Shown here: in pieces, positions 1 to 48,936 of the stretch
Numbering within the stretch: position 1 is the first letter of the stretch
Layout: every line of letters starts with the position of its first letter
Assembly: GCF_036373705.1 (NCBI RefSeq)
Contig: NC_089863.1
Location: 6,423,357 to 6,487,356 of the forward strand
DNA: 64,000 bases
Reading direction: 5' to 3'
DNA from: Amia ocellicauda
Taxonomy: Eukaryota; Chordata; Actinopteri; Amiiformes; Amiidae
Notes under the pieces: generated by a model
Database searches by the model: none
The model's input: only the letters and a program-made list of their open reading frames with translations
Told to the model about the DNA's origin: nothing
Position numbers and translations under genes: made by a program

Positions 1-2420
1 AGAGCTTCTGGAGGGAGACAAGATCCTGACCAAGAAGGGGCACTTAATAGAAGAGCTTACCTTCAAGATGCACTACCAAATGGGGGTGTTTGGAGACATC
101 AGGGAGACAGAGGTGCTCCTACCTGGGGGGGAGAGGAAGCACATTACTTATGATGAGCCCTTATTTAAGAAGGTGCTGGAGAACTTCTCAGGCGGTGCTC
201 CCAGTGCTGGCCATCTTCAAGAAGGTTCAGAGGGAGAGAGAGTCATTTTGAGTTTCAGGAGACGGCTGTTCCCTAAAGATGGGGAGCTCTGGACAGCATG
301 CGCTACTGCCCATTATTGACACTAAGCATATCTTACAGGAATTCTGCCTTATGGTTTATTTTTCCCTTTCTGATTAATTACTATTGTGACACTGTGGTAT
401 GCCTCCCCAGACCCATGAGTAGTTGAATTAACAGCCAGAACAGCTGACCCACTGTTCCCAACGTGACTGCCTCCCCACCACAATAAATCGGGGAAGTGCC
501 TGGCATCCCTTTGTGAAGGGGCAGAGAGGAGAGCCTGAGAGACAAGTGGAGTGAGTGCAAGTGCGGAAGAAGCATATCGAGGAGAATAGAAGTATATGGT
601 TACGGACCTTTGTTTACAGCTTTGACACCAGATTACGGATCATGGATTTTGGACAGGTTGCTATTGTGTTTGTTGTGTTATTATTAGTTATATGTGTAGA
701 GAGGGATCTGTTCACCAGTTTAGTTAGGCTCTAGAGGAGCTAGGTTCTTGATGTCTTTTTGCTTTGAGCACCATACAATAAATGAAGACCTTTAAGGCAG
801 TTTAACAAACAGAAATTGATTGATTGATAACAATGCTAATTACAGATTTTATGGCAGATACAAACAGCAGAAATACATGTTGAAAGTAAGCAACCCTACT
901 TACATCATGTATGTTGGTGGTTCAAATCCAGGCAGGATCACTAGAAAAAGGAGTGACAAACGGAATTGGAATGGAAGCTCTGGAATAGGGCCCGACCCTG
1001 TCTCTCTAGGTGGCCCCAAGACGGTCAGTGTTGTAGACAACAGCTCGGCCAACTCCAGATAAGGATGAATTTCTCTGCCTGTAAGCCTTCCCTTGTCATT
1101 TTACACTGTTGCTGCTTCTTCTTAAAATGTCACTGCTTTGGGAAAAAGGCCAATTAGTTCCATCTGTGTCGTTTACCTGGAAATGTAATTTGTTTTTAAT
1201 AAAGCATTTTAGAAAAGACTTTGCCGTACTTCCTGTATGTTGTGCTGTTTGACTGTCTGAGCCATCCATTAGCAGAAAAGCATTGTTCATGTTTATATGG
1301 GCTGGCAGAAAATAGGTCCATTCTGAAATATTGTGGCTGTTATGAACTGATCCTAGTCAGTTGTGGTTAGATCTAATTGGTTATATGTAGCCCCAGGGCA
1401 GTGCATGTGCATCTCAAACACTACAGATCCTGTGACACATAAGAAAGTAAATATGTAATTGCCACAATACAATCACCATTGAGATACCTGTGTATGCAGG
1501 GATCAAAGTGAAGAAGCAGAGGAAGGCAATAAAAAAGCGCAAAAAGCTTCTGTTACCACTTGCAATCCAGGAGCACAGGTGTCAACACAAACGTAGATGT
1601 TGTCAAATTGGGATTCAGCGTGAGAGCGCCCTCTGGAGCCCAGTGTGAAACTTACCACAAAGGCACAGATTTAATTCTGTTGGTGCTGGTAGTAGGTTTG
1701 AAATATCCCAATATTGTATTGGTTGGTCACAGTGCTGCACTCACACCCTCCCCTCTACAACAGCACAGCAGCCTGCGCACCACTAATGACAGAGGCATGT
1801 GTGGGAAAGAGTGAATATGATAATTATATTTTTATATTATTTATGATTATTAAGTTACAATGGTAATGCTATCAAAACCCAAGTATACATCAGGAGAGCA
1901 GATAAAAAGGATCAGGTACACAAGAAAGGACAGTTTATTTATTTTTGTATTATTATTCTGCACACGTACTTCCAGCAATGGGCCTGCCCTTGCCTCATGT
2001 TATTAATTGAGTTAACAATGTTTCTGTGTTTTTGTCTTAAAAGTGGATGGAATATTGTTGTGCAGCATGAGGTGTCCCACGCTGAAAGCTGACTCTCACC
2101 AAAGATACAGGCCCCATCTGCCTTCCAAACCTCGTTCAGTTCGTCCTGAAATCTGGGACCCAAATTTGGGTAAATATTATTTTCGTACATTGACAATTTG
2201 GTGATAAACTGCATGCATATGGCTGCGTCAATAAAATACAGTAGATGCTGATGCTGCTGTGTACGAGGCTGTGTACTGTTTCTACTACTACAACTTGTAA
2301 TAATAATAATGTAGTGTGTCACTGCACCCAATAATGGGTTATTGGTAGTGATGTTACACTAGAAGCAGGCTACACAATTGGATTGTGTGCTGTAGATAAG
2401 AATAATAATAATCTGTCCAG
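1..2420. repeat. Left unit of a tandem segmental duplication (partner about 8381-10420)
   Basis: The 3' coding end, 3' UTR and about 2 kb of downstream non-coding sequence recur at 8381-10420 in the same order and orientation, with many substitutions and indels. Clear shared blocks are 1190-1360 with 9015-9190, 1560-1800 with 9450-9690, and 1860-2200 with 9800-10320. The left unit has about 390 extra bases (roughly 384-773) between the 'gattaattactattgt' block and the AATAAA at 777. No other gene is seen in 320-2420. Confidence 0.75.
2..319 (+). pseudogene. C-terminal piece of a third copy of the CARD/PYD-associated gene family, frameshifted
   Basis: The reading frame enters from the left window edge and matches the C-terminal domain of gene A, with shared motifs such as FKMH-QMGVF, LPGGE-KHITY and EPLFKK-LENFS. 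After ENFS a 14-base segment present in gene A (around 8567-8580) is missing, so the frame shifts. The last 38 or so residues are unrelated to the family, and the normal stop (about 255) is bypassed until 319. The family's ending, which is ...ERDLF in gene A and ...ESELF in gene B, is lost. Upstream exons lie outside the window. It could still make a protein with an altered tail, but the simplest reading is a decaying tandem copy. The function of the domain is not recognised. Confidence 0.7.
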
Positions 2421-3911: not shown

Positions 3912-6900
3912 ATGAGTCAGGACAGCCTAGAAGGTGAGCTATGAAATCTGTCAACTATATATGGGTATCTAAGTTCCCCAGCAGTCAGTATTGCTTCATT
4001 CATACAGTAGAACTCCTCTGTTAAACGTGTCTGGTCAAAATGTGATCTTCATTTTTGACCATTAATAGATACATTTCAGGTTACTTTGCAGTTGAAATTG
4101 AGGGGATCGTTATAAAGGAATGAACACCTTATTAAGGGGTCCCCCAGTAAAACAAATGCATAAACTATCAGATATAATTGTTACAGACAGCTGGCAAGTG
4201 TTTAGCTCACTGCTTGCTGGATGAAGCTGACAAACACAATTGTTGATGGTGTTCCCCATAAGGACACTGTGATTGTTGTTACAGATTTTCATGAGGACCT
4301 TGAGATTACCCTTCAGGATGCATTCTCAGCCATCACTGATCATCTGAAACTACCCTGTCTCAATAAAATTGCTGATGTTCTTCTGGCCAAGAGAAGAATC
4401 AACCCTATGGAGTACGAGGAGCTGCAAGAGAAAGGAAAAGTCAATCTGTTCCTACTCATGATGCTGAAAAAGCCAAAACAAGACCAGAAGTTGTTCCTAG
4501 AAATCCTGAAAGAAAAAGACAAACGAATGTATACACAAATAATGAAAGAAGGTAGGAGATAAATTAAGAGGAGAGGAATGTCAGAGGAATAGATAGGATA
4601 GATTAAGGACAACTGAGCAGCAATTCCTGAAAACCTACATAAAAACAATTACAGAAAAGGCAATTGCCTTACTAGTATTAAGGTGATCTAGCATTTTTTG
4701 ACACTTAAGCACTTGTGCGCATTTCTGGGGAGGGGGCGGGGGGCAGCTTCGAGTAAAATTAAGTTTATTGGAAAAAAACAAATCCAGTACTACTAGTGTA
4801 ATAACCTGAATTAAAGTTATCCAATCACAGCACTAATACCACAGTCTTTTCTATTCCCTTCTATCACAGCCCATGATGTGATCGGCAGATCCTCACAGTC
4901 ACAGCCCACGAGTGACACTCAAGGTTGATGCTGATAAAATTGTTCTCTCTCTGTGTGTTAGCCCTTCCCGCTCTCTCGCTCTCTGTGTGTGTGCCATCTC
5001 TATTCAGGCTCTATAGTCCACACAGCACTGGCTCCAGTCTGGGCCCTATTATCCAGATTGTGCTGCTTGCATTCTGGGCCCCCTAGTTCAAACAGTGCAT
5101 TAAAACACTTGTATATTCTATCAATTATTGTTTCGATTATTTGAATAGTTGAGACACTGCATTATTGAAGATTTTAATCATTTGAACTCGTCATGGCTCC
5201 AATAAGCCCTAAGCAGTTCATTACAGTGAAGTGAGGCGATAAGTGAGACTGAAGACAGTTGACCTACTGTGATCTATTACAGAGCCAAGGAGGAGAAAAG
5301 GATCGAGCAACACAGAGGACAAAGTGGCAGCGAGTAAGAATCTGAAAATCTTTTAAACAGCAGATGTGTTCATTTAATGTCTTACCAATTTAATGATTTC
5401 AATGCATAGTGCTCACTGAAGTTTTAAGGCATTAGAGACACTGAACCAAAGGGAATTAATGAGCACATGCTTAAAAACTGCTCACTAGCATGAAACGTCT
5501 GTTGATTCATAATATTTTTTTTTCAATTTCTATTAAGCATTAAGGGCCATGGCAAGGAAATTCAAGTGTACTTGGGTATGGCTATGTGAGTGTACTTGAA
5601 ACTCTATAGACTGACAACAACATCCACACAAGGTGTCTATCTATCATGTGGTTTAAATATTGATTTATTATGTATTTATTTATTGGCAGGTGCCTTTATC
5701 CAGGGCAACCTATAACAATACAATTCAATACAAAATTCAGATTAATCTTCAATACAAAGTACAATTTAAGAAATACAGAAATGCAGAAGTACTGTTGGTA
5801 AAAAAAAAAAAAATACATCCTTAATTGAAGAGGTGAGAAGTGCAGATATAAAGTGGTGCTTCTTTTACGGTTATTCAGGAATGAGTCAAACTGTACAAAC
5901 AGTTATACTTTGATTGGACAGTGTGCAACAATAACCTGACTGTGTTTGGTTGCTCTAATTGAAATTGCAGTTGCAGAAAGAGAGCAAAGAAACTTGCATC
6001 CCACAATATGGTGCAGCATTCAGAGGAGTGGTTAGCTCCACTAAAAGATCTTGATTGATAGTATCAATAGTTTTCCTTTCAGCACCATTGCATAGTCAGT
6101 GTATGACTTTTCTGTAAAGGTTTTGCAACCAAATTGCAACTTTTTAATGTTAATTGTAACCTTTGGACCTAACTGTATATATAATAGGGCAGAGCATTTT
6201 AATCCAACAACTCTCTATCTCCCTCTATCAATGTGCTATTTCTGCAGGGTGGAAATAGTTTATGTATTAATATAGCACTCCTCAATATGAAAAGCAAAGA
6301 AAGCACATATTAACACTGAAAATTAATAATTTCATATTTTTTACATACTGTTGCAATTGACCTCTAAGAACAATAAAGCAGTCATTGCACAAACTGCCCT
6401 CCCGCAACTCACTCAGAGTAAAGTCATGGGCAGAGTCTACTTTGTCTTCTGTCGGAGGTCTGGTGTCAGCAGTGTCTGATCCAGAAGACTTCCTCTCTGC
6501 CATGAGACACACAACTCTACCGAACCCAGATGACACATTACATTTCGCTCCAAGAATAAGCAGGAACTAAAGGCAGCTGCAGTGCAGGCCTGGCAGAGCA
6601 TCACCAGGGAAGAAACCCATCATCTGGTGATGTCTATGGGTTCCAGACTTCAGGCAGTCATTGACTGCAAAGGATTTGCAACCAAGTATTGAAAATCACA
6701 ATTTAATGAATGATTATGTTTGTCCAAGTGATTGTTTCCTTTCAACTCCATTGTGGTGGCATACATAGACAAAATGATGACAGTTGTGTCATTGTCCTAA
6801 TATTTATGGACCTAAATGTATATATTTATATATTTTTTGTATCTCCAGGTTTGACAAAGATGGAGGAGTACGTGGACAAGTCAGAGATCAGCGAGCGACT

Positions 6901-8641
6901 GATAAAGGACTTGAGTGCCAGACTGAGAGCGGGAGAGATGGAGAAACTGGAAAGGCAGTTGATTAACAAGCAGTTGAAGAACACCTACGTTTTCACCCAC
7001 AAAGACATCAAACTACTTGTTGGCAACACGCAGCTGAAGGAATTCCTGGGAGGGGGCAGCCAAAGGGAATTCCCTGCCAACGTCCTGAAGCAGTTCTTTG
7101 CGAACAAGCAAGGGGTCAAGCCAGATGCCAATGCAGGAGAATGCTCTCAGCTGGAGGAGAGCAATGCTGGGTTAAAGGAAAACCAGAGTGCATGTGAAGA
7201 CTCCACTGTCCTCCCCTCTCCAGACACCTGCTCTCCACAGCCTGCAAATGGAAAGACTAACAGTAATGTAGCTCTATTTCCAATATTCACCCCATTGATC
7301 TCTGGTAGTAACACCTTCCTAAGGAAAACTAATGAAAAAAGCAACAGAAAGAAACGCCGAAACTCCAGCTGCACTGGATATGGCTCCCTTGACAGAGTAA
7401 ATCGACCAAAGCTCCAGAAAGAAAACAGAACCCCAAGGGGACAATCACATTCTGTTAAACGAAATCTGCTGAAATCAAATTTTACCAAAATTGACTGCTC
7501 CTCTGTGAATTGCAGGGGTCCTCTTAGACCAGCAGATATAAACTGCCGCAATATAAATTTACGTCAGTGTAAGCTGACCTATTGTTTCAAAAGAATAATG
7601 GGAAGTGTCAATGAAGTCAACAATAATCCCAAATATTACCCAATCTTTTTGAGCAATACTGACTTGCAGGAGAGGGTCTCATCAAATAACAATTACACTG
7701 AGCATCAACAGTCTCCTTTGCCAGTCCAGAAGGGTAGTGATTCTCTGCCCACCCGTAGGTCTGTGAGGCATCGGTCTGCTGAGGAGGGGGTGTGGATATC
7801 AGGAGATACAGTGTAGGAGAGTGGGAAACATACCCCTGAGACAGCATGCCTTTCTGTGGCTGGTTCAGAGGCTGTAGCAAAGTCTTATGGAAACCAGCTG
7901 GTAGCACAGACCCTACAATCCCAGGGCTCAGCAGTTACAGCTACAACAGAGGATGACAGCAATCACTTTCCCCTCAACTCTAAAATAGTTTCTACTGTCG
8001 AGAAAGAACCTTCACATAGGCCTACGGTAGCAATGCAGGTGGACACACCAGAGAGATCCCCACAGAGGCAGATTTTCTCCAATGCAGCATCTACTGAGGT
8101 AGATGGAGCTGCACTGAAGAGCAAAGAGCTGGACTACCGCAATGGTTCCAGACTGTCAGAGAAGCAGCCAGCACAGCAGACAAAGAAGAGGCTGACAGAG
8201 TGGGCAAAGCAACTCATGTTTAACAGGAAACAATGTGCCAGTGAGGGGGAGAAGATGGACACAATCAGGAAGGCTGTGTCCATTGTCAACGTTAGAAGGC
8301 ACAGTCTACACCCCTGTCTGGTGGCCCAACACTGCGTGGAGTTCCAGGACCCTGAGAGTGGGAAACACAGGATTATAGAGCTTCCGGAGGGAGACAACAT
8401 CCTCACCCAGGAGAAGGACCTTACAGAAGAGTTTACCTTCAAGATGCACTTCCAAATGGGGGTGTTTGAAGACATCACGGAGACAGAGGTAGTCCTACCT
8501 GGGGGGGAGATGAAGCACATCACTTACAATGAGCCCTTATTTAAGAAGCTGCTGGAGAACTTCTCAGAATGCATTAGTCAGGCAGTGCTCCCGACGCTGG
8601 CCGTCTTCAAGAAGGTTCAGAGGGAGAGAGACTTATTCTGA
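3912..8641 (+). CDS. Gene A: CARD-like death-fold protein with conserved middle and C-terminal domains (one internal TAG)
   Basis: The model joins 3912-3933, 4285-4551, 5283-5333 and 6849-8641. Every junction is AG/GT and phase 1, and the total is 711 codons including the final stop. It starts MSQDSLE. Exon 2 (residues about 8-97) reads as a CARD-like six-helix death fold, including IADVLLAKRRI, NPMEYEELQEK, LLMMLKKP and LFLEILKEKD. Exon 3 is a short basic linker (PRRRKGSSN). The last exon has a middle domain (about 115-210: EEYVDKSEISERL, REFPANVLKQFF), a long Ser/Asn-rich linker and a C-terminal domain (about 555-710) ending ERDLF. An in-frame TAG at 7814-7816 interrupts the linker, and the frame is otherwise open to 8641. 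It is therefore either a young pseudogene, a polymorphic or mis-sequenced codon, or a truncated protein lacking the C-domain. The architecture suggests a death-fold signalling adaptor or receptor. The C-domain's function is not recognised. Confidence 0.7.
5640..5830 (-). repeat. SINE 3'-domain fragment in intron 3 of gene A
   Basis: 'ttattggcaggtgcctttatccagggcaacctataacaata' is the reverse complement of the SINE tail seen at 17,495-17,540, preceded by an AT-rich tail. The 5' head is not recognisable. Confidence 0.55.
6060..6840 (+). mobile_element. Tc1-like transposon remnant in intron 3 of gene A
   Basis: The stretch 6570-6690 translates as the C-terminus of a Tc1-family transposase (HHLVMSMGSRLQAVIDCKGF, then ATKY and a stop). 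It is followed at 6710-6815 by a degenerate inverted-repeat end. The same end sequence occurs at 21,925-22,110. Part of the other end may lie at 6110-6180 (ggacctaactgtatata). The catalytic core is absent, so the element is dead. It ends a few bases before the acceptor of the large exon at 6849, so the element supplies or abuts that splice acceptor region. Confidence 0.65.
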
Positions 8642-10420
8642 GCCGTTTCAGGAGATGGCCATTCCTGACTTTGCAGGAGTTCCCCTGAAGACGGAGAGGT
8701 CTGGATAGGGTGCACTACTGCCCTTTTTTGACACTAAACATATCTTATAAGAATTCTGCCTAATGGTTCATTTTTCAATTTTTGATTAATTACTATTGTA
8801 CAATAAATGAACACGTATTTCCGCCCATCCTCGTCTTGTCTGTTACTTAAACCAGGCATGAGAGGCCCGGCAGTGCTTGACCTACCCCCCACACTGTCAC
8901 ACTGTGTTATATTGTTTTTTATTCTATGAAGTGCTCTAAGGTAACCTTGCATAGGGTGCTATAACAAACAAAAATTGATGGATTGACTGATTGATAACAA
9001 TGCAACGTGGAGTTGTAATCTCAGTTTTTAATAAAGCATTTTAGAAAAGACTTTGCCATACTTCCTCTATGTTGTGCTGTTTGACTGTCTGAGCCATCCA
9101 TTAGCAGAAAAGCATAGTTCATGTTTATTTGGGACAGCAGAAAATAGGTCCATTCTGAAACATTGTGGCTGTTAAGAACTGATCCTAGTCAGATGATCAT
9201 ATGGGTTAAATGCAGCCCCAGGGCAGTGCATGTGTATCTCAAACACTACAGATCCTGTGACACTGTTTCACTCTCAATATGTAACCTTGAGTCTGTAAGT
9301 GAGCAACATAACTGGTTACAAATCGGAGTCGGTGAGAACATTGTAAATACGTAATTGCCACAATTAACACAATCATCCTTGAGATACCTGTGTATGCACA
9401 GAGTGAAGAAGCAGAGGAAGGCAAAAATTAAACACAAAAGCTTCTGTTCCCACTCGCAATCCAGGAGCGCAGGTCTCGACACAAAAGCAGATGTAGGCAA
9501 ATTAGGATGCAGCACAAGAGTGCCCCCTGGAGCCCAGTGTGAGACTTACTACAAAGGCACGGACGTAGTTCTGTCAGTGCTGGCACAGGTTTGAAATATC
9601 CCAATATTGTACTGGTTAGTCACAGTGCCGCCCTTACACCCTCCCCTCTACAACAGCACAGCACCCTGCGCGTACACACCCCTAATGACAAGCGTGTCCT
9701 CGTATGTGTGGTAAAATAGTGAATATGGTAATTATATACCCAGTTCATCAAATTTAGTATTTTTGTATTATTTTTGATTATTATAAGTTACAGTGGTAAT
9801 GCTATCAAAGTATAACTGAGTATCGATGAGGAGAGCAGATAAAAAGGTTCTGGTACACAAGAAAGGACAGGTTTTTTTTTTTTTTTTTTTCTGCTGTGGT
9901 TTTTGACAGCTGCACTATGTCGCCTCTTCCTGTTTCTCACATTGCCTGTGTGTGAAGGTGGTCTGTGACATCAGAGGCAAAGTCCTGCTTATCTGTTCAT
10001 CTGCAATACAACTGCCTTCCCCCTAAACCAAAGCGTGTTTTCCAGCCTGCCTACGCGGACTTGCACACGTATTTCCTGCTCTGGTCTCAAGTTATTAACA
10101 AGTGTTCTGTGTATTTGTCTGTTAGTTTTGAGTGTCTAAGTTAGTTTTGTTTAATCTTCAAAGCTGATGGGATATTGCTGCACAGCACAAGGAGCCCCGC
10201 TCTTCTCTGATGTCATCCTCTGAAAGCAGAAGCTCAGCAAAGACACAGATCTGCGCTCCAAACCTTGTCCAGTTCGTCTCTGAAATCCGGTATTATTTAT
10301 ATTATTTATAAATAATTATTTCCGCACATAGATACTTTTGGGAGAAACTGCTTCCAATAGTACTACTGTTTCTACTACTACTAATTATTATCATTAACAT
10401 CATAATACATCATAAAACAT
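8381..10420. repeat. Right unit of the tandem segmental duplication
   Basis: This is the homologue of 1-2420. Beyond the 3' end of gene A it holds no gene. It contains a GATT-rich tail (8970-8996), also present at 815-827, from an older LINE/SINE 3' end, and a T-tract at 9870-9890. Confidence 0.75.
8812..8817 (+). terminator. Poly(A) signal of gene A
   Basis: AATAAA lies 171 bases after the stop of gene A. The homologous signal of the left tandem copy is at 777-782, further from its stop because of extra sequence there. Confidence 0.6.
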
Positions 10421-10425
10421 AAAGC

Positions 10426-10430
<5 letters not shown>

Positions 10431-10467
<37 letters not shown>
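10431..10467. repeat. (CT)n microsatellite
   Basis: About 17 CT units are read directly. Confidence 0.95.
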
Positions 10468-10469
<2 letters not shown>

Positions 10470-11102
10470 AATTAACATAGTGTGAGAGTGGTGAGTTGTC
10501 CAGCCCCAGGACTCTTGCCTGGGGACTATTGCCTTTTACTTTTACAAGACAATAGTATTTTATTTCTGTCTAGAATATTAGTGCAACTATCAGACCAGAT
10601 AAATAAACCCAGCACGAATCACAATAGGTTTTGTTCTTGCCAAAATCTGTCAGCCCAGACCCCACAGCAAAAATGAGCAGTGCTGGTTATCAACAATGAC
10701 TATTTTGTGGCTAACTGTCATATTGTATCTATCTATTAATTTGTTTAGATTTATGAAGCTGGAAAGCTGTATTTGTGCATTCCAACAACACCAATAAAAT
10801 GCACCGTTGCTCAGCCAATTGTATCATTTGTTCAGGTTGCCTGCATGTGTACCTCTTAGATGAATAGCGGTAATCAATACGTTTGTAGTGCTGTGTCAGT
10901 CCTAGGTTCTGACTGTCCCGATATAGGATTTTTACATCACATTAAAGTTGTGTATCCATTTATGTGTACAGGTATAGTTTATATGCTGTTTTATCTCCAA
11001 TGGTTTTACATTAACGCTCTACATGTTGAAATAAATAAATGAATACATACAATTTGAAATACATTACAGACCTTGTTTATTTTTAACGTTCTATCTCTCT
11101 CT

Positions 11103-13170
11103 CTCAATTCAATTCAATTCAATGCAAGCTTTATTGGCATGACATTTGTATAGAAGTATTGTCAAAAGCATGTGATATAGACCGATCAGCCATAACATTA
11201 TGACCACTGACAGGTGAAGTGAATAACACTGATAATCTCGTTATCATGGCACCTGTCAGTGGGTGGGATATATTAGGCAGCAAGTGAACATTTTATCCTC
11301 AAAGTTGATGTGTTAGAAGCAGGAAAAATGGGCAAGCGTAAGGATCTGAGCGACTTTGATAAGGGCCCATCTGACTGGGTCAGAGCATCTCCCAAACTGC
11401 AGCTCTTGTGGGGTGTTCCCGGTCTGCAGTGGTCAGTACCTATCAAAAGTGGTCCAAGGAAGGAAAAGCGGTGAACCGGCAACAGGGTCATGGGCGGCCA
11501 AGGCTCACTGATGCACGTTGGGAGCGAAGGCTGGCCCGTGTGGTCCGATCCAACAGACGAGTACTGTAGCTCAAATTGCTGAAAAAGTGAATGCTGGTTC
11601 TGATAGAAAGGTGTCAGAACACACAGTGCATCGCAGTTTGTTGCGTATGGGGCTGCGTAGCCGCAGACCAGTCAGGGTGCCCATGCTGACACCTGTCCAC
11701 TGCCGAAAGCGCCTACAATGGGCACGTGAGTAATAAATAAAAAAATTAAATTAAAAATGGTATGATTAGGAACATTTAAATACATGAAAGTAATATATCA
11801 TAGTAAATAATATTTATGAGAAAAAACTAGACATCGATAAAACGTTCCTTATTCCCAGTAAAGTCCCCCCTCTCTGACCTTAGAAAATAGCTCTAACACT
11901 ACCCCCCCTCTGATGCGCTGATCCTATATCAGACTATGGGCTGTGTGGCTGCCCCCCCCTTACCTGTAGCAATGGGCCTGTGCGGTTGCAGGCTGTCCAC
12001 CCACTGTACACACTGTCCCTACATTGTCCACCAATTGTCCCTCCGGCTGTGGCATGCAGACACATATTTGGCTGCTATACCAGCAGTGTTCTCCTCCTCT
12101 CCCAGAAGGATGGGGACCTTTTCAGTATCTGGGAGGAGTGTGAATTCTCTGATATGGTTCCGAAATTTGGGGGTGTATTCTTTTCGTATGTCTGTGTATT
12201 TCGAGCAGGACAGCAGGAAGTGTGTCTCTGTTTCGATCTCTCCCTGCTCACAGTGGCGCACAGCCGCTCCTCTCTGGTGACCCAGGACCAGCTGGCCAAG
12301 AGGGTCCCACTCTGGGGAGAGCTGGTTGCTCAGTAGTGCTTTGTGGTGGTAGGACTCAGGGTCCGCCTGCTTTAGGTGGGACCAGAACTTCACTGCCCTC
12401 TTCTGGATGGGATCAGCAGGGGAAACAGATCCATTGTTTTGGGCATTCCTGTGGACCTGCAGAATGTGCTTACAGAATTCAAATTGCAGTTTTTCTATCA
12501 GGCTTTTGTCCCAGACTGTATAGGTGGGGTTTGTGAGGGGACCCCACACCTCTATCCCATAGAGGGGGTTTTTATGGTGTAGAAAGCCTGACATGCCTTT
12601 TCTTTTAGTGTGTTGGTGGCCTGATTTAAACTCCCTGAGGCACTGAGGGTCAGGCCCAGGTAGCTGTGGCTGGTGCTGTGCTGTAGCACCGTGCTGCCCA
12701 GCGTGAGGCAGTATCTGTGTCCCTGAGATCTGGCTTTTGTCTGGAAAACCATGACTCTGGTCTTTTCCAGATTGACTGTCAGGGCCCATTTCTGACAGTA
12801 CTGCACCAGCAGGGCCAGGTTCCACTGCAGCCCCTGCTCTGTGGGCGACAGCAGCACCAGGTGTAGAGCAGGAACTTGATCTCTGTCATGGAGAGTGAGG
12901 CCGGGGGCGTCAGACTGCTTCAACACTGTGGCCAAGTCATTGATGTAGATGTTGAACAGTGTTGGACTTTTATCACCAATCTTCACTGCGCACTTATTTT
13001 CCGAGTAAATTGATTTGATGATGTCATAGACTTTACCCCCTACACCACTTTGGAAGAGCCTGTAAAGTAGTCCTTTGTGCCAGATTGAATAAAAAACTTT
13101 CTTAAAGTCAATAAAGCAAGCAAATATTTTACCTATTTTTTGGTAGATGTGTTTGTCTATGAGGGTGTGT
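11103..13170 (-). mobile_element. 5'-truncated non-LTR retrotransposon (LINE), minus strand, with nested Tc1-like fragment
   Basis: The minus-strand frames at 12,019-12,986 encode reverse-transcriptase C-terminal sequence: TLFNIYINDLATVLKQ, then a thumb region with YLGLTLSASGSLNQAT, and a carboxy region with ETHFLLSCSKY and GIEVWGPLTN. The frames are broken and the catalytic YxDD region is degenerate. The reversed 3' end, with an AATTG-type tail, is at 11,103-11,160 (CAAGCTTTATTGGCATGACA). It is separated from the body by the Tc1-like fragment at 11,179-11,730 and about 200 bases of AT-rich sequence. The clade is uncertain. Confidence 0.65.
11179..11730 (+). mobile_element. Tc1-like transposon, 5' portion only
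   Basis: It begins with the inverted-repeat end ('accgatcagccataacatta') beside a TA and continues through the N-terminal DNA-binding part of the transposase (frame 11,518-11,733: VNAGSDRKVSEHTVHRSLL). It stops abruptly at about 11,730 before the catalytic core. The longer relative is at 56,159-57,055. It is inactive. Confidence 0.8.
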
Positions 13171-13249
13171 ACGATTTAAATATAGTGTGATGTGTGGTGT
13201 TTTGGTAGGAAGCCAATCTGACTCTCTCTCTTTCTCTTTCTTTCAGGAA

Positions 13250-16200
13250 ATGGAGGTTGAAATTACACAGGGAAAGTGGACCCTGGCCCTGTCCAATATT
13301 ATAGAGGAACTGACAGCCAGTCAGTATAAGAGGATGCTGATGCTGCTCACTGACTTGCCTTCTGGGAGAAAGGAGAGTGACAAGGAGACCATCTGTGAAG
13401 TGATCATCTCACACTATGGCCTGCAGCGATCGGTGACTGTCATTCAGGAGGTCATGAGAAAAATACCCAGGAATGACCCCTGCATGCTTGAGATGCTGGA
13501 GCCCTTTGTGTCTGCGATCTCCAACAGAGGTACCACCCCCCGGAGAACACACTGTGTTCTGGCAGAGTTGTGTGAGGTCCTGGTTTGGATGCAATTTGGT
13601 TCTGCAAAATATGATGTCAGCAAAGCGTCACAGAAGTGTGTGACCCCTGAACACCCCTGAGTTTTCTGTCACACAATAACACTGCTTCAATACACATCAT
13701 GCACAATTCTGTTATTTTCAATACATAAAACTTGGTTCAGAGTTTCTCATTCCACTTAAATCAACTTATTCTTTGTGTTGAATTATTTGTCAAACACAAA
13801 TCCTGGAATACAGTTCTGTAAATATAATTTCATAGTGTTACTTTACAATGTTTTGACCACATCCCCTGGAGTCTAGGGAATGGGGTCTCCACACCAGCAT
13901 GCTGTCCTATGTTCACTTTATTGCGATGTTAACTTAGTTGCGGTGGCAACTTCTGGCTTTCTCCACTACTACACAGTGATGGACATCCAAAGCACTGTGG
14001 TGGTTTTGTTGTTAATAACCTATAGAATAAAAGTCACACATCTATGTCAGAACGAACTGTCTGCAGTCTTATAGTGACAACCCTATCTCTCTGTCCAACC
14101 CCTTAAACTTTCTCTTTCTTTCTCCATTGGTATTTCTGCTTCAAGAGCAGCAAGGCCCTGTGGATGAATGTGACAGACCCCCTCCTGAGAAACGGCATAA
14201 GAGAAACAAACCAGGTCAGTACTGCCACATTGTCACACACAGTCACCCAAACAATGTCTCTCACACACTGTCACACACATCTATCTCTCTATCTCTCTCT
14301 CTCTTTCTCTTGTTGTGCCACCTCAACTGTGCACTAATGATCTATCACCTGTGGGGGTTAATCTGTGCATGACTTAGAAATGTCTAGGTTTAGGATTATG
14401 ATCAGGAGTGTATCCTCAGTTGTCCCCAGGAAGGTATACACCTTCCACTTATTTTACTGGCTCCAGTGGTGCCAGTGGATGGAATTGACGCATGACAGCA
14501 AAACAATAACACAATAATACAGACAGACCCCCCACAAATACCCCCTAGCATGTGATCTTTTGAAGAAGACTCTTTGTTTTCCTTTTTTTACATTTTGTGT
14601 AAAATGTGCTAGTTTACAATTTGCTTTCGCTCTCACCTGTAGAGAAGAAGTGGACCAGACCTGATATCTCAACTTCAATTGCAGAAGGGCTCCAGAAAAC
14701 TGATCCCAGTCTTAGAGATGAAGGGGCTACAAGAGCCCAGCTAGGTGAGCATCGCAGGGTCCCGTGGGTGTGGACCAATAAACGATTAAGCACAAGTCAG
14801 GGATCCATGCAACTGAGTGGGATGATAAACATGGTGTGGAAGCCTCCTTGGGTAGCATGCAGAACACCTATGGTTTTTAATTGGAGTTTTAAACTGAAGT
14901 GGAGGAGGGGAGGAGGGGAGGAGGGGAGGAGGGGAGGAGGCCAGCCCCAATCTCGCACCTGACTCCCACCTTCCCCAGCATAAGTATCCAGCAAGAAGCC
15001 TACTTTCCCAGCATTCATTGCTTTGCCTCTCTCCTTCACCCCCCCTCATTCTACTTAGTTGGGGGGGTTCTGATGGCCTCATCCTCATGGCCAGGTCATT
15101 GTTCCCTTAGTCAAATCAAGTCTAGGCCAAAATAAACTCTATTAACCTTCTAATACGTACGTCTACTGGTGTGGCCCGAACTCCAGAAGTTGAAGTCAAG
15201 GTGTGAGGATAGTCAAAAGGACTGGCTGCCAAAAATGAGAGGAGGCATTTTTTCCAATCTAGATCACTTGGTTTGCATTGGTAAAAAGCCAGTGATCAGG
15301 CCATTATCTAGTTATTTATTCAGGGCTCATAGATTTGCTGTTTCAGACTCCCACAAAGCCTGCCTTCCTGAGATGCCACTATCTTTTGTTCCCTCACGAC
15401 TCTGTTTTCTTCTCCCCCCACTCAGCTGCCTACAGCCTGTCAGAACTAGACCAGCACCTGGAGAACCGCGAGGTATGCCACCGGTATGTCGCTGACCTGC
15501 GGGAGAAGCTGAAGGAAGAGGAGCTGGTGAAGCTGAGGTGTACCATCCAGGGCAAGAAGCTGAGGTGGGGGTTTATCTGCACCTGGGAGAGGATGAGGGA
15601 GATCTGCATCAACCAGCGGCTGAGGAAGCTAGTGGAAGGCGGCTGCCAGAAGGACTTCCCTTTCAAGATCGTGCTGAATTACATCTTCGAGAATAATGCC
15701 AAGTATGCCAAGGCCTGCAGTGGACGACCGGCTTCACTCAGCCAGACCAGCGCATGCTTTCGGTCCATCGATGACCCAACACAAGAGCAAGGGCAGGACC
15801 GCTCCTGTCCAGCACCTTCTCAGTCTGCCCGGGATGGAGTCGCTCACATTAATAGCAGCCTTCCCACAGAGGTCAACGTCGGCGGCAAAAGCTCAACTGT
15901 GGACCAAGGCGAGGCTGCCCCCTCAGAGAGCAGCAGAGGAGAAAACCCAGAGCCCAGTGGCAGAAGTAGGCTGTCCCCGGGAAGGCTATCCACCTCTCTG
16001 GGGGATGCGAGCCTTATCCCAGCCACAGATGCTAAAGGGCCTTCTCTTGAGCTGTGGAGGGGTGACAGCTGGGAAGATCCACAGGGAAACTGCAATGAAC
16101 CTTTGGGGACCAGAGATCCAGTAGAAATACCCCAACTCCAAGAAACAACCAAGAAAAAGGGCAGCTTGGTAAAAAGGGGGCAAAGGAAGAAGCCAGTAGC

Positions 16201-16702
16201 GAGGGAGGAGCAGCAGAGGAAGATGGAGAGTCTAAGAGAGTGGGCCAGTGCTAACAACCTCCTGGGGAAGAGGAGAAGTGAAGAGGAAGAGGAGGAGATG
16301 AGAGCAGTCAGAGATAGGATCACCTTCGTTAACATCAGGGGGCACAGGCAGTTCCCAACCTTGGTGGCTGAACGCTGCATGGTGTTCGAAGACCCTGACA
16401 CTGGCAAGAGACGGATCCTGGACATCCAGGTGCCAGAAGGAGATCGAGAGCGTCAGAAGATCCTGAACAAAAACCAGGATCTGACAGACGAGTTTTCCTT
16501 CAAGACGCAGTTTCACATGGGCGTGCTGGGGGACGTCTGTGGCACAGACCTGATCTTGCCAGGCCGTGTGATTAAGACCATCCCTTACAAGCCAAGGAGG
16601 TTTAAGGCCATGCTGGAGACGTTTGTGGAATATATGCAAGAGGCAGTCCTCCCAGCGCTGGCTGTGTTTAAAGAGAAGCAGCAGGAGAGTGAGCTGTTCT
16701 AA
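13250..16702 (+). CDS. Gene B: Pyrin-domain protein with the same middle and C-terminal domains as gene A
   Basis: The model joins 13250-13529, 14146-14214, 14643-14744 and 15426-16702. All junctions are AG/GT and phase 1, giving an open frame of 575 residues plus stop. The ATG lies 3 bases after an acceptor at 13,246, so an upstream untranslated exon is expected. Residues about 8-85 read as a Pyrin domain (IIEELTASQYKRMLMLL, ISHYGLQRSVTVIQEVM, MLEMLEPFV). Exons 2-3 are a basic linker (PPPEKRHKRNKP), a possible nuclear localisation signal. The middle domain (about 155-250) matches gene A (LSELDQHLENREV, GGCQKDFPFKIVL). After an acidic/basic linker the C-domain (about 420-575) is collinear with gene A (VNIRGHRQFPTLVAERC, DLTDEFSFKTQFHMGVL, AVLPALAVFKEKQQ) and ends ESELF. 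Its molecular function is not recognised. A PYD-driven inflammasome-like role is inference only. Confidence 0.8.
14903..14940. repeat. GGGAGGAG minisatellite in intron 3 of gene B
   Basis: Nearly perfect repeats of a 9-base GGAGGGGAG-type unit. Confidence 0.85.
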
Positions 16703-19186: not shown

Positions 19187-19358
19187 CACTCCTCCTAAAA
19201 GTCAGGAGAGAGAGTTGAAATGCCTGTAGTGATTATTTCCCACTATGGCGTGAAAAAGTCTGTGGCTGTCATTCAGGATGTATTGAAGAAAATACATAGA
19301 AAAGACTGCAAGCTACTTGACATCCTGCAGCCCTATGTGTCTGCGGTCACACCCGGAG
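19187..19358 (+). pseudogene. Decayed PYD exon of the gene A/B family
   Basis: The frame reads VIISHYGVKKSVAVIQDVL, LLDILQPYVSAVTPG, and is plainly related to the second half of the gene B Pyrin exon (13,400-13,529). It ends at the same phase-1 donor context (g|gtac). The first half is missing: the expected helix 1-2 region is replaced by sequence with in-frame TGA and TAA codons just after the acceptor-like 'ctccccag' (19,180-19,187). No downstream exons of the family are found before the Tc1 element at 19.66 kb. Confidence 0.7.
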
Positions 19359-24130: not shown

Positions 24131-25559
24131 TCACTTGAAAGCCACATCTGGGATCTTCCTTTGAGTCTGAAGAGAAAGAGAGAGAGTGAGCAACAAAGAG
24201 TATGAGAGGAAGAGGGAGAGGGAGAGTGAGTGTAAGAGAGACTGACCTTGAGCTGGGTGAAGATCTGTGAGGCTCTGTTGAAATCCCATGCATTGTCCTG
24301 TAGACACCTGCAACAAGATCTCTACTGTGAACAACACTCAGCACACACAACACACACACTATAGTATATAATCGACACACTGCTGTTAACACACACTATT
24401 GCAAATGTCAATGTGGTGCAGTGGTCAGTGCGGTCAGCTGTGTCAGTGGTCCCTGTCCCACTGTGGTCAGTGTCCAGCAGTACATACTTCTGTGACCACT
24501 CCAGGTTCATGCGGGACCGCGTGGAGAAGATGGACAGCATCTTTTGCTGCTTAGCAGTCAGTCTGGGCACGGAGCTGCTGGGTGGCATGGGGGCCAACGT
24601 GGCGAACGCCCGTCTGATCATCTCCGGCTTCGCATTCCGCACAAACAGCTCATCGTTCACAATACAGAGCCTGAGAGATGGAGAGAGAGAGACCGAGAGC
24701 TCATCATTCACTATACATGGCCTGGAGTGAAGGACAGGGGGATGAGAGGCAGAGGTGAAGAGATGAGTGGAGCTCTTACCCAGAGTTTGCTGCAGGGACT
24801 GTGATGAACGTGCGCGAGAACATGCGCACTGAGTCTCCAGACTTCTCGTTCACTGAGAGAGGGAGAGGAGAGAGAGAGAGAAAGAGTCAGTGCCAGACAC
24901 TGCGGGATAGTAGAGTCCTCCCATCTTCCTTCAAACGGTATAGTCCACTATAGTACAGTCTAGTGCAATTTGCTGTAGTCTAGCTCAGCAGAATACTGTC
25001 CAGCCCCACCCCACTCACCTTCTTTAAACACTCCAGTGACGGTGAAGGACAGTATCTTTTTCTGGAAGAGAGAGAGACACCTGTCAGTCAATCCATCAAT
25101 CACTGAAACACTCCCTCTCTCACACACACTGTGACACCCAGAGAGAGCAAGAGAGACAGACAGACAGAGAGAGACACGCAGACACACATGGGTCAGTGGA
25201 CACTCACAGTGCTGGTGTGGACATCCACCACGAAGGAGCTGGGGTCGTGCTGCGTCTTGGGCAGCTCGTTCAGCAGGGACACCACGCCCTGGCGTGTTTG
25301 CTTCTGCAGATGGAACCACGAGGCTGTAGCAGGAGGGGATGGAGGGACATGTTAGAGGGGCGCACAGGAGTCCACCTCACTGCACACGCCATTGGTACTA
25401 TAGCCACCATTTGCACTATCAATGGCTTGCACTGCAGCAGATCAGCTTGTATTGTACATAACTTGCAACCTGCCATTATGCTGTGTATATTATGTGGAAT
25501 GCTGACATATTCTACTGAATACATTAGTCCTGTGAATTTGGACTGTGTCCATTTTACTG

Positions 25560-25596
<37 letters not shown>

Positions 25597-26634
25597 TATA
25601 CAGCTTGCACTTACTGTAAATACTGTAGATCTATTGTAGTGTATTTTGCTGGATTAGTGTTGTTGATGTTGTGGTGTGTGTGTGTGAGTGTGTGTGTGTG
25701 TGTGTGTGTGTTCAATGCCTGTGCACTTTCTGTGTTCCAGCACAATCACACTCACTGGGGTCTTTCGGTTCTTTGACATTGGAACTGGTCTTGTAACCTT
25801 CCAGACTGCACCTGTACACAGAGCAGGAGAGAGAGGGGTCAGCACTGTCACCCTGACCACAGTGAACTGACTGACAGACACACACAGAGGCACACACACA
25901 TACAGAGTCGCACACACACTCTTGTGGTACCTGTAGGGGTTCTGAGAGCAGAAGGGGTAGCTGAGGGAGAAGGTGGCTGCGTCCTGATATGCCTCGAGGA
26001 GCAGCCATCTGTTCCCCGAGTCGTACACTTTGTAGTACCTGACAGACACACAGACAAACAGATGCATTAACACACTGTAATAGCAGACAGACATATTAAC
26101 ACACTAAAACCAGACTGACAGACACATTGCACTCTAATAGCAGACAAGGAGGACTTTGATATAAAGACAGACACAAATAGCTACACAAACAATATCTGAC
26201 TTAGTCACTCACTCCTGCAGGAAGTGCTGAATCACTCTTTTCACCTTCCTACCCACAGAAGTACTGCCCTGTAGAGAGAGAGGGGCAGAGTGTTAGGCAA
26301 ACCCATCCTCACTCGGGGACATCAGCTGTAATCTTTATAGGGGGCATGGAATCGTGGGGGGCTGTCACTCACCTTGCAGGCCAGGAGTGTTGTTGGGGAG
26401 TCAATCTCAAATGTTATCAGTCTGGGGAGGACATGACCATCCTGACAGAGAGACAGAGATGTTAGTGTGCGTGTGGTTGTATGTGTGTGAGTGTCAGAGA
26501 AAGTGTGTGAGAAGTGCGTGCGAAAGTATATCTTACCAGCCTGAGCAGTTGGGGGAACTTCTTTCTGATGGCGCTGTCAGACAGGGAAACAGAGGAGAGC
26601 AGTGTGACTACAGAACCACAGAGCAACACTCTCT

Positions 26635-26690
<56 letters not shown>

Positions 26691-26710
26691 GCCACAGAGC
26701 AACACTCTCT

Positions 26711-26770
<60 letters not shown>

Positions 26771-29441
26771 GCCACAGAGCAACACACTCTCTCACACACC
26801 TGATGTACGATGGCTGGTCTTTGAAGTTTTCACACATGGGGTTGTGCTCCAGCCACAGCTCCTCCAGCTTGAAACCCTTCACCTTGTCCAGAACCCTCTC
26901 TGACTTCAGCTGGACACGGGGACAGACAGGACAGAGGGGCAGTATGTAGTCAGTGGGCAGGTGTGGACAGGGGCAGCGCGGGGGTGGACAGGTGCAGCTC
27001 ACGGGTGGGACTCTTACCTCGTTGTGGGAGAGGTTGAGGATCTTCAGGTTGGGCACTTTTCTCACCAGCTCAGAGACTTCGTCCAGTTTGTAGAGTCTGT
27101 TGTTGCTGAGGTTCAGAGAGAGGAGCTGAGGGGAGGGGAGAGAGAAGGAATATTAATATGCCCCATCCTTGTAAGCTGAGGATGACTACTTCTCGAGTAA
27201 AGGAAACACCCACCCCACCCCACAAACCGCCGTGTCCCCAGTGCAGGCTGGTTGCTATGGCTTACCTCAGGGATGTTCTCCTCGATGATGTCATTGACGT
27301 CCTGCATGCCGCACGTCCTGTTCAGAATCACCTCGATATTCCGAGACGCCAGGTCTGAGAGACAGGGGTGGATTAGAAGGGTGACTGTGAGAGTAACACA
27401 GTGTGAGAGATTGAGAGTGTCAGAGTGAGAGAGTGGGCAGTGACAGCGTGTGCTTACCTGGGTCAGTGCGAATGCTGCTGAGGTCCAGAGCTTGCGGAGA
27501 AGCATCAAAACGCTTACTCATACATTGCTGGAGAGAGAGAGAGAGAGAGAGAGAGTCAATTGGTCAATGGTGGCTATTTGATGACCTGCGTCAGGAGCAG
27601 TCGCGCATCTACTGTGATATTGCGCTGTATGCTTTAGTGTACGTCCATCCGTCTGTCTGACCTTCAGTTGCTCCAGGTCCTCCGGCTTCAGTCTGTGCAG
27701 CACGCTGGGGGGCGGGGGGCTGCGGTTCATGACGATGTACACCTGCGGGGAGGCGGAGCGACAGAGCGGTCACACCCCTGAGCCGATTAACCCTTAGGAT
27801 TAACCCAGAGACCAACAGACAGAGAGACAGACAGAGAGACAGACAGAGAGAGCTCTGCTCACCTTGTGTCCCTCAGTGGCAGTGATTTTGCCGGACACTT
27901 TGCACAGCGCGTTGGCTGTGGAGGCGTCATCCACGTAGAACACCACCCTATTACCCTTGTAGTGATACTGGAGAGAGGGAGGGAGGGAGGGAGAGAGGTC
28001 AGTACACAGTCCCACACACAGAGAACAGCTGTATTCATCGCTTTAAAGCCGCCTCCTCCTCTGTCACATGGTGCAGATGTCGGTTTCTGTCACCGTGACT
28101 CGCTGTGCTGTCCTGGGTCACAGACATAAACACAGGCTGAGAGAGCAGGACTCACCTGTACTGGGATGAAAGGCACGGTGCACAGGCCCCGCAGGGCGGT
28201 CAGCAGCAACGACTTGTCGTACTTCTCCCTGCAGAGGATCTGGAACCGGAGAGAGCAGCACAGTCAGCGCACAGCAACACACACACACACAGTCACCCAC
28301 ACACAGTGTCACTCACACAGCCACACAATAACTTACACTGCTCTGCTCTACTCACCGTCACTTTGAACCAGCTGCCTCCCCGGTCACGGTCGCAGTGATT
28401 CCTAATGAGAGGAGAGAGAGATGGTCACACAAGTCCCACAGTGGAGCCACAGCAGGTTACAGTCACTCACAATCTCCTCAGGGGGTTGCTGCTGTACTCC
28501 TTCAGCCTGGCCCTGCGCATAGGGCCTCCTGCGTCCAACAGGTCTCGCTGACAGCCATTGTTCAAGTACACTGGAGGGAGAGAGAGGATGAATCAGAATA
28601 ATGTGAAATAAAGGTGCTTTCAATATCTGCCATATACATAACAGCAGCCTTGGAATAACACTGCAGCCCTGTATTTCTATCATTCCTGCCATGTGTGATA
28701 ATTGGGACCAATTGTATCTTATATCCCTAAATATGTTTCACAGCCACCAGCTTCACACAGACTCTAAGTGTCCTCATTATTATAATTATTAATAATTATA
28801 ATATTGTAGGTTAGTTCCTTCATCAGCTAAATATTATTCATTTCTTGGCAGACAATTTACCGTTTAAACAAACATCACCAAAGTGCAAATCAATACAAAT
28901 TCCAATTCAAGCAAAACTGCCCCCTCAGAGTAAAACCCTGATCGATCTGATTTGCACAAACAAGCCAGAAAGTGACAAAAACATATCATTTATGAACCGG
29001 TTTGTCTGACCATAACATGATCCTGATTGTTAGAAAATGTATGAAAACTGTTTCCCCAATTTATTCTATAATGAACATGAACTGGGGAATGCAGGTATTC
29101 CTAAGAATGAAATGCAATTATTTAAATCAAACTAGAGAATATTGATTAACTTAGCTTAATAAAGAAATCCAATGCAATCAATGAAATGTTTCTCTACCAT
29201 AATCAAATAAGGATATTTGTCAGTTATGCTTATTTTATAGTTAAGATTGAGACAGATGAGATAAAGGAGCTTAATGATTTTTATTTTTTAGGTATCACAT
29301 TGGATTCTCAATTGAAATTTGATAAACATGTTAAGACACTTGGCAAAACCATGAAGGCAAATTTAAATTGTTTCCGAATGTTAATATATTATATCCCTCT
29401 TAATGCAGCTCAGTTGTTTATGCTTGCCATGGTATTCTCAC

Positions 29442-33254: not shown

Positions 33255-34837
33255 CAGTGAGGGAAAAAAGTATTTGATCCCCTGCTGATTTTGTACGTTT
33301 GCCCACTGACAAAGAAATGATCAGTCTATAATTTTAATGGTAGGTGTATTTTAACAGTGAGAGACAGAATAACAACAAAAAAATCCAGAAAAACGCATTT
33401 CAAAAAAGTTATAAATTGATTTGCATGTTAATGAAGGAAATAAGTATTTGATCCCCTATCAATCAGCAAGATTTCTGGCTCCCAGGTGTCTTTTATACAG
33501 GTAACGAGCTGAGATTAGGAGCACTCTCTTAAAGGGAGAAAATCTCAGCTTGTTACCTGTATAAAAGACACCTGTCCACAGAAGCAATGAATCAATCAGA
33601 TTCCAAACTCTCCACCATGGCCAAGACCAAAGAGCTGTCCAAGGATGTCAGGGACAAGATTGTAGACCTACACAAGGCTGGAATGGGCTACAAGACCATC
33701 GCCAAGCAGCTTGGTGAGAAGGTGACAACAGTTGGTGCGATTATTCGCAAATGGAAGAAACACAAAATAACTGTCAGTCTCCCTCGGTCTGGGGCTCCAT
33801 TCGAGATCTCACCTCGTGGAGTTTCAATGATCATGAGAACGGTGAGGAATCAGCCCAGAACTACACGGGAGGATCTTGTTAATGATCTCAAGGCAGCTGG
33901 GACCATAGTCACCAAGAAAACAATTGGTAACACACTACGCCGTGAAGGACTGAAATCCTGCAGCGCCCGCAAGGTCCCCCTGCTCAAGAAAGCACATGTA
34001 CAGGCCCGTCTGAAGTTTGCCAATGAACATCTGAATGATTCAGAGGAGAACTGGGTGAAAGTGTTGTGGACAGATGAGACCAAAATCGAGCTCTTTGGCA
34101 TCAACTCAACTCGCCGTGTTTGGAGGAGGAGGAATGACCCCAAGAACACCATCCCCACCGTCAAACACGGAGGTGGAAACATTATGCTTTGGGGGTGTTT
34201 TTCTGCTAAGGGGACAGGACAACTGCACCACATCAAAGGGACGATGGACGGGGTCATGTACCGTCAAATCTTGGGTGAGAACCTCCTTCCCTCAGCCAGG
34301 GCATTGAAAATGGGTCGTGGATGGGTATTCCAGCATGACAATGACCCAAAACACACAGCCAAGGCAACAAAGGAGTGGCTCAAGAAGAAGCACATTAAGG
34401 TCCTGGAGTGGCCTAGCCAGTCTCCAGACCTTAATCCCATAGAAAATCTGTGGAGGGAGCTGAAGGTTCGAGTTGCCAAGCGTCAGCCTCGAAACCTTAA
34501 TGACTTGGAGAGGATCTGCAAAGAGGAGTGGGACAAAATCCCTCCTGAGATGTGTGCAAACCTGGTGGCCAACTACAAGAAACGTCTGACCTCTGTGATT
34601 GTCAACAAGGGTTTTACCACGAAGTACTAAGTCGAAGGGGTCAAATACTTATTTCCCTCATTAACATGCAAATCAATTTATAACTTTTTTGAAATGCGTT
34701 TTTCTGGATTTTGTTGTTGTTATTCTGTCTCTCACTGTTAAAATACACCTACCATTAAAATTATAGACTGATAATTTCTTTGTCAGTGGGCAAACGTACA
34801 AAATCAGCAGGGGATCAAATACTTTTTTCCCTCACTG
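33255..34837 (+). mobile_element. Full-length Tc1-like transposon with TA target duplication
   Basis: Termini are CAGTGAGGGAAAAAAGTATT and its inverse. Inverted repeats of roughly 200 bases are flanked by TA (33,253-33,254 and 34,838-34,839). Between the left inverted repeat and the ORF lies a second, internal hairpin: 33,484-33,518 pairs with 33,543-33,573 (caggtgtcttttatacaggtaac). The element encodes an uninterrupted transposase and looks structurally intact. Confidence 0.93.
33617..34630 (+). CDS. Tc1-like DD34E transposase, intact
   Basis: The preferred start is the ATG at 33,617 ([10 protein letters not shown]), which has an optimal CCACCATGG context and matches the usual family N-terminus. 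An in-frame ATG 30 bases earlier exists. This gives 337 residues, normal for the family (about 340). The N-terminal half has two helix-turn-helix DNA-binding parts ([32 protein letters not shown]) with a basic hinge. The catalytic DDE triad is present: [12 protein letters not shown] (D), [18 protein letters not shown] (D) and [15 protein letters not shown] (E). It cuts and pastes the element at TA sites. No stop or frameshift is seen, in contrast to the sister copy at 19.7 kb. Confidence 0.93.
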
Positions 34838-47781: not shown

Positions 47782-48936
47782 ATAAGAACATAAGAAAGTT
47801 TACAAATGAGAGGAGGCCAATCGACCCATCGTGCTCGTTTGGTGTCCATTAATATCTAAGTGATCCAAGGATCCTATCCAGACTATTTTTAAATGTTCCC
47901 AAACTTTCAGCTTCAACCACATCGCTGGGTAGTTTATTCCAGATTGTGACGCCTCTCTGTGTGAAGAAGTGTCTCCTGTTTTCTGTCTTGAATGCCTTGA
48001 AGCCCAATTTCCATTTGTGTCCCTGGGTGCGTGTGTCCCTGCTGATCTGGAAAAGCTCCTCTGGTTTGATGTGGTCGATGCCTTTCATGATTTTGAAGAC
48101 TTGGATCAAGTCCCCACGTAGTCTCCTCTGTTCCAGGGTGAAAAGGTTCAGGTCCTCAGTCTCTCAGTAGGACATTCCCTTCAGACCTGGAATAAGTCTG
48201 GTTGCTCTCCTCTGAACTGCCTCTAGAGCAGCGATATCTTTCTTGAAGTGTGGAGCCCAGAACTGTCCACAGTATCCAGATGAGCTCTAACTAGTGCATT
48301 GTACAGTCTGAACATCACTGCCCTTGTTCTCAATTCTACACTTTTGACAATATACCCTAGCATTCTGATTGCCTTTGTTATTGCTTCCCCACATTGCTTG
48401 GATGGAGAAAGTGAGGAGTCCACATAGACTCCTAGGTCTTTCTCATGCGATACTTCATCTAGATCTGTACCTCCCATAGTGTAATTATAGTGGACATTTT
48501 TGTTACCTGCATGTAATACCTTGCACTTGTCCACATTGAATTTCATCTGCCAGGTGTCGGCCCACAACTGAATATTATCTAAGTCCCTCTGAATAGCCTG
48601 TGCTGCCAAGATTGTATCTGCTGAGCCACCTATTTTAGTATCATCTGCAAATTTGACAAGTTTGCTAACTATCCCAGAGTCCAGATCATTAATATAGATT
48701 AGAAAAAGCAAAGGCCCTAATACTGATCCCTGTGGACCTCCACTAACAACCTCACTCCAGTTAGAAGCGACTCCTCTAATCGACACCCTCTGTTTCCTAG
48801 ACATCAACCAGTTCATAATCCATCTACTTACATTACCCTGAATGCCTGCAGCTTCCAATTTGAGGATCAGTCTTTGGTGTGGAAGCTTATCAAAAGCTTT
48901 TTGAAAATCTAAGTATTTCATATCATATGCTCTCAC
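47782..48936 (-). mobile_element. CR1-like LINE with reverse-transcriptase domain, minus strand
   Basis: This is the longest copy in the window. The reversed tail is at 47,782. An uninterrupted 237-codon frame (48,936-48,223) holds RT motifs FQKAFDKLPHQRL, GGPQGSVLGPLLFLIYINDL and the catalytic FADD box (LVKFADDTKIGG). The downstream C-terminal part (48,109-47,849: FKTENRRHFFTQRG) is separated by a frameshift and a TGA shared with other copies. The 5' half (endonuclease) is absent. Confidence 0.9.

Follow-up and report, generated by a model that had tools for sequence, protein, structure and literature searches.

A small predicted gene family of the bowfin, Amia ocellicauda, in which two shared domains stand behind either a CARD or a Pyrin exon

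Genes in the window

The DNA analysed here (the window) is a stretch of 64,000 nucleotides of the bowfin, a holostean fish, and corresponds to C20 6423357-6487356. Two neighbouring genes, A and B, are found in its first part, together with a piece of a broken copy (Z) and a relic exon:

1..187, plus strand: C-domain portion of Z (match C20:6423046-6423543), a tandem copy that is broken and has its remaining exons upstream of the window
3912..3933, plus strand: proposed first coding exon of gene A, 22 nt, with ATG and GT donor, ending in phase 1
4285..4551, plus strand: CARD exon of gene A, in phase 1 at either end; its Pfam CARD match (E 9.2e-5) falls slightly short of the cut-off
5283..5333, plus strand: small exon of gene A, 51 nt, with AG/GT borders and a frame that continues
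6849..8641, plus strand: large exon of gene A (middle domain, linker, C domain), with an in-frame TAG at 7814-7816
13250..13529, plus strand: first coding exon of gene B, Pyrin, present in RefSeq protein P0001; its Pfam PYRIN match (E 2.5e-4) also falls slightly short of the cut-off
14146..14214, plus strand: small exon 2 of gene B, model equal to P0001
14643..14744, plus strand: small exon 3 of gene B, model equal to P0001
15426..16702, plus strand: large exon of gene B (middle domain ~15428-15727, linker, C domain ~16260-16699), equal to P0001
19220..19358, plus strand: relic Pyrin exon of which the second half is left, its DNA ~75% identical to 13396-13516

The translation of the four exons of gene B is identical throughout to P0001 (LOC136768002, 575 residues). 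Both N-terminal exons lie where the initial annotation had placed them, that of gene A being 267 nt long between AG and GT, and that of gene B 280 nt long with an ATG start and a GT after it. An AATAAA is found at 8802 behind gene A and at 17219 behind gene B. The TAG of gene A falls between the two shared domains with a long open frame on either side, and the 274 open codons that follow it have a chance probability of ~3e-7. The stop could reflect a recent nonsense mutation, allelic variation, an error in the assembly or a truncated isoform; as it stands, the gene would yield the CARD, the middle domain and the linker only. Because of this premature stop, gene A taken alone is poor evidence.

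Several other elements share the window with these genes. A LINE-type reverse-transcriptase piece (12019-13175, minus strand, by eye) adjoins the Pyrin exon of gene B, and another is found at 48226-48954 (minus strand; RVT_1 E 9.7e-20). In an intron of gene A, the segment 6235-6537 is inverted between A and Z (L009:5283-5607), and carries on the minus strand a 94-residue ORF with a sub-threshold Pfam FAM60A match (E 0.0065). The exons of an NXF1-like mRNA export gene lie at 24325-27517 (minus strand), of which the ORF 26637-27152 matches LRR_NXF1-5 (E 2.2e-30) and the rest was assigned by eye. These are accompanied by an open 365-residue frame for a Tc1/Sleeping Beauty-type transposase (33533-34627, plus strand; HTH_SB E 3.3e-26, DDE_3 1.4e-15) and by an exon of a C2H2 zinc-finger protein (52777-53958, plus strand; zf-H2C2_2 E 6e-49). 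An open, N-x-S/T-rich frame of 154 residues (54405-54866, plus strand), with no Pfam match at E <= 0.01, is perhaps an envelope-like remnant, as judged by eye.

Family members across the genome

The initial annotation had treated A and B as a neighbouring pair, and although they are indeed tandem paralogues, the family proved to be wider. With the body of gene B as query, a search of the genome (988 Mb, 385 contigs) gave nine matches in seven places, i.e. two matches each for A and Z and one each for B, G2, G5 and G6 (all on C20), in addition to a fragment on C6. A mere pair was therefore rejected in favour of six loci on one chromosome, of which G2, G5 and G6 denote those near 5.475, 8.134 and 5.391-5.395 Mb of C20, respectively. 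The bowfin thus has a small family of predicted genes in which two common domains stand behind either a CARD or a Pyrin domain. The layout opens with a CARD or Pyrin exon for the N terminus; one or two small exons come next, followed by a large exon that encodes the middle domain, a long low-complexity linker and the C domain. All six C20 loci have a death-fold exon, which is CARD in Z (assigned by its likeness to A), A and G6, and Pyrin in B, G2 and G5.

Only three of the copies are open (B, G5 and G6), the other three (A, Z and G2) being broken. The clearest cases are found beyond the window: the G5 model equals RefSeq P0002 (LOC136768528), an intact protein of 592 residues, and in G6 the frame stays open through the three exons that were located, beginning with the CARD exon and ending at the stop codon; its start exon was not located. 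In Z, a stop lies within the CARD exon and the body is spread over more than one frame, while G2 has a TAA in its C domain, the match ending at residue 372 of 424. A and Z are recent tandem copies, ~78-89% identical across their aligned pieces. In the Pyrin relic at 19220-19358, 23 of 41 residues are as in B. The fragment on C6 (L018:5165-5395; phmmer 1.6e-11) is a lone piece of the C domain on another chromosome, and no A- or B-like CARD or Pyrin exon was found around it (plus strand, 10 kb).

Relatives outside the bowfin were not found when the B body, the G5 body and a seven-row profile were compared with the word-sharing candidates of a large protein collection. Each of these searches returned a single protein, the bowfin's own P0001 or P0002; since the other bowfin paralogues were missed as well, the searches say little about absence elsewhere. 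Of 28 pattern matches to the C domain in viral_contigs, none was confirmed as a relative. The available portions of the open-licence PMC literature, including those of PMC8195603, PMC6721725 and PMC12436146, hold no description of the family.

Identity and predicted joining of the CARD and Pyrin exons

The initial annotation had called the N-terminal exon of A CARD-like and that of B PYD-like, which agrees with the present results. In both cases the Pfam match is approximately 1 bit below the cut-off (22.8 versus 23.9 bits for CARD, PF00619, in the exon of A; 21.6 versus 22.9 bits for PYRIN, PF02758, in the exon frame of B, and 19.5 bits, E 0.0011, in the whole 575-residue protein), and these two matches, taken by themselves, are suggestive only. 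At the same exon position, however, the cut-off is passed by the CARD of G6 (7.6e-11, 42.3 bits) and the PYRIN of G5 (2.1e-5, 25.0 bits), as a result of which a chance match of both exons was rejected. The exon of G2 stays just below the PYRIN cut-off (21.2 bits), the truncated CARD exon of Z has no Pfam match, and the CARD of gene A alone gave nothing at E <= 1 against PDB sequences. Among solved sequences, the CARD profile is nearest to NLRC4 (2.9e-6) and caspase-1 (1.2e-4), and the Pyrin profile to NLRP4 (0.0013), NLRP10 (0.0022) and NLRP12 (0.0074).

In phmmer searches of the flanks, B-like Pyrin exons were recovered before G5 (8.4e-29) and before G2 (1.5e-18), and Z yielded a CARD exon like that of A (4e-17). 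The CARD of A did not find the CARD exon of G6, to which it is 18% identical, and the two CARDs may therefore have separate origins. No member was found to combine Pyrin and CARD in one protein: P0001 has PYRIN only, and the death-fold exons of G5 and G6 are of one type each.

The proposal that the death-fold exons are spliced to the body holds for Pyrin, which is joined to it in the RefSeq protein models of B and G5 (so that stray unspliced exons were rejected for these two genes); for CARD, what points to joining is the splice borders and the frame.

Shared domains and their constraint

The middle domain (~95 residues) and the C domain (~150 residues) that had been proposed as common to A and B are real, the aligned members being 24-51% and 28-46% identical to B in these domains, respectively, and A and B 45% identical in the C domain. 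The C domain is found at all six loci, and is complete and in frame in B, G5 and G6. That neither domain could be recognised was likewise borne out in the libraries searched: no credible family match was obtained for the C domain in Pfam, NCBIfam, PHROGs and PDB sequences, or for the middle domain in Pfam and PDB sequences. Structure prediction was uninformative, both for full-length B (three alignment rows, mean pLDDT 37.7) and for the C domain (two alignment rows, mean pLDDT 41.9), with sequences of the window and P0001 as the input, and a Foldseek search with the latter model gave no match better than E 1.3.

The substitution ratios (upper bootstrap limits in brackets) are 0.38 (0.89) and 0.42 (0.82) for the middle and C domains of A-Z, 0.23 (0.49) and 0.34 (0.63) for those of B-G2, and 0.30 (0.54) for the C domain of A-B. 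Constraint is not shown by the middle domain of A-B (0.56, limit 1.15) or the CARD of A-Z (0.78, from 47 codons and with no useful limit), and substitutions are saturated for B-G5 and for the linker of B-G2.

Exon phases and the number of exchanges

The models built for A, B, G5 and G6 have phase-1 introns. The CARD exon is symmetric (1-1) in A and G6, while the Pyrin exon of B and G5 carries the start codon. According to established exon-shuffling logic, exons of symmetric phase can be exchanged without breaking the frame.

The tree of the middle and C domains together is ((A,Z),(B,G2),(G6,G5)), with bootstrap values of 94 for B-G2 and 92 for G6-G5, which are lower for the single domains (59 and 79, respectively, for the C domain; 89 and 60 for the middle domain). 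This tree pairs the CARD member G6 with the Pyrin member G5, and needs at least two CARD/Pyrin changes. A tree with one swap is disfavoured by the two domains together (AU p 0.042, 0.036 and 0.028 under three models); under three models each, its p values are uneven for the C domain alone (0.100, 0.096 and 0.033), and the middle domain alone (0.135, 0.12 and 0.141) does not disfavour it. The Pyrin exon of B differs from its body in the sites that it has in common with other members. In the C domain of B, 32 sites are common only with G2 and 6 only with G5 (28 versus 11 in the middle domain), compared to 12 only with G2 and 19 only with G5 in the Pyrin exon. Taken alone, the latter distribution has a p of 0.28; its contrast with the C domain has a Fisher p of 1.3e-4, and that with the middle domain a p of 0.008. 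The long branches of G5 and G6 (i.e. long-branch attraction), or unequal rates in the broken G2, could be behind these signs of a double swap. Repeated exchange of CARD and Pyrin within the family is therefore plausible but unproven.

Comparison with known systems

PYHIN proteins such as AIM2 have an N-terminal Pyrin, a linker and a separate C-terminal domain, a layout that the Pyrin members of the bowfin family share. The family differs from them in having a CARD at half of its loci and no Pfam match to the HIN domain in P0001, G5, G6 or the pieces of A and Z. Like ASC, the family uses both CARD and Pyrin, but in ASC the two are present in one protein (PMC6721725), which was found for no bowfin member. 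Fish NLRs, as described for zebrafish (PMC6721725, PMC12436146), resemble the family in their exchangeable N-terminal death folds and tandem copies, whereas the bowfin members scanned have no Pfam match to NACHT or leucine-rich repeats.

A parallel in kind is provided by the fish inflammatory caspases, for which PMC6721725 describes a Pyrin in caspase-1-like proteins (caspa, caspb and caspbl) where mammalian caspase-1 has a CARD, so that a conserved body is preceded by a CARD in part of the relatives and by a Pyrin in the rest. CARD/Pyrin exchange on one body is thus known in kind. The body of these proteins is a caspase, of which none was found in the bowfin family (Pfam, members scanned). 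Furthermore, the caspase swap is described there between lineages, whereas in the bowfin both forms occur in one genome and in neighbouring genes. The initial annotation had considered the arrangement a striking design; one body with either CARD or Pyrin is what is seen, but given the swap in the caspase-1 relatives of fish (PMC6721725) it is less unprecedented than was thought.

Proposed role and alternative explanations

CARD and Pyrin are domains of homotypic assembly. The reading that we put forward, with confidence that stands about midway between doubt and acceptance, is that the family consists of death-fold sensor or adaptor proteins of the inflammasome type. A death-fold role is suggested by the strong CARD match of G6 and the PYRIN match of G5 at the exon position that A and B also use. 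As an explanation it is further supported by the RefSeq joining of Pyrin and body, the ratios of 0.23-0.42 in four body comparisons and the precedent of the fish caspase-1-like proteins. Counting against it are the breaks in A, Z and G2, the lack of a relative beyond the bowfin in the insensitive searches described above, the ratios of the A-Z CARD and the A-B middle domain, and the low identity of the CARDs of A and G6. In such proteins, the C domain, together with the middle domain, would receive a signal or ligand, the long linker giving the C domain free movement, and once bodies cluster, the death folds at their N termini would start a homotypic filament. Partners with a Pyrin (ASC, or the Pyrin-bearing caspases of fish) would be drawn in by the Pyrin members, and partners with a CARD (caspases, or ASC through its CARD) by the CARD members. 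Exchange of a phase-1 exon would in this way connect one body to two pathways; the truncated product of gene A, if expressed, could be a decoy. Such routing of a single module to different partners is a reasonable deduction rather than an observed result.

What the C domain might receive is addressed by a reading in which it has a degenerate nuclease fold of the YqaJ/lambda-exonuclease type, which has lost catalysis but binds nucleic acid; this would make the proteins AIM2-like with another receptor domain. The order of strands and helices fits, by eye, and the C-domain profile aligns collinearly over 96 columns with nine phage exonucleases at a score of 22.9. When one profile was shuffled 300 times, no shuffle attained this score, and when the other was, 1 of 300 did; these counts are not corrected for the prior choice of the candidate family. 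The alignment nevertheless has a probability of only 3.8%, and a profile of the six-member core lowers the score to 19.1, attained by 7 shuffles out of 400 in one set and 11 out of 400 in the other. Among the 51 lambda proteins compared, lambda exonuclease by itself came 24th. Moreover, the E/D-x-K catalytic motif is not conserved (D-I-Q in B, G2 and G5, other residues in A and G6, and lysine in none), and neither the structure models nor the Pfam and PDB-sequence searches of the C domain lend the fold any help, so that we consider it very improbable. The least probable of the proposals discussed here is the combined one, i.e. a new class of fish inflammasome sensor with at least two CARD/Pyrin exchanges of its phase-1 death-fold exon and with a C domain that detects nucleic acid by an inactivated nuclease fold.

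Proteins that have only a CARD or only a Pyrin domain cap inflammasome filaments or compete with them, and the bowfin proteins could be regulators of this kind rather than sensors, with a body that merely sets stability or cell location. The lack of a credible nucleotide-binding, repeat or ligand domain (Pfam, members scanned) and the shortened product predicted for gene A would suit such a role, but the presence of the C domain at six of six loci, three of them with the complete domain, suggests that it has a job of its own; mere regulation seems decidedly unlikely. The family could also be a decaying, lineage-specific one, with half of its copies broken, the rest weakly constrained, and a difference between CARD and Pyrin that has no current use. 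The stops and frame breaks in A, Z and G2, the half Pyrin exon at 19220-19358 and the C-domain fragment on C6 all fit decay; against it, B and G5 are intact with RefSeq models, the three exons located for G6 are open and the B-G2 ratios are below 0.5. Decay of the family as a whole seems unlikely.

If the family does not work as proposed, it would be a fish-specific family in decay. If, on the other hand, it does consist of death-fold sensors or adaptors, one sensing module would be plugged into two signalling routes within one genome, which would amount to a natural experiment that compares the contributions of CARD and Pyrin to the same sensor. It would also show inflammasome families forming by exon exchange, and would add two undescribed domains to vertebrate innate immunity.
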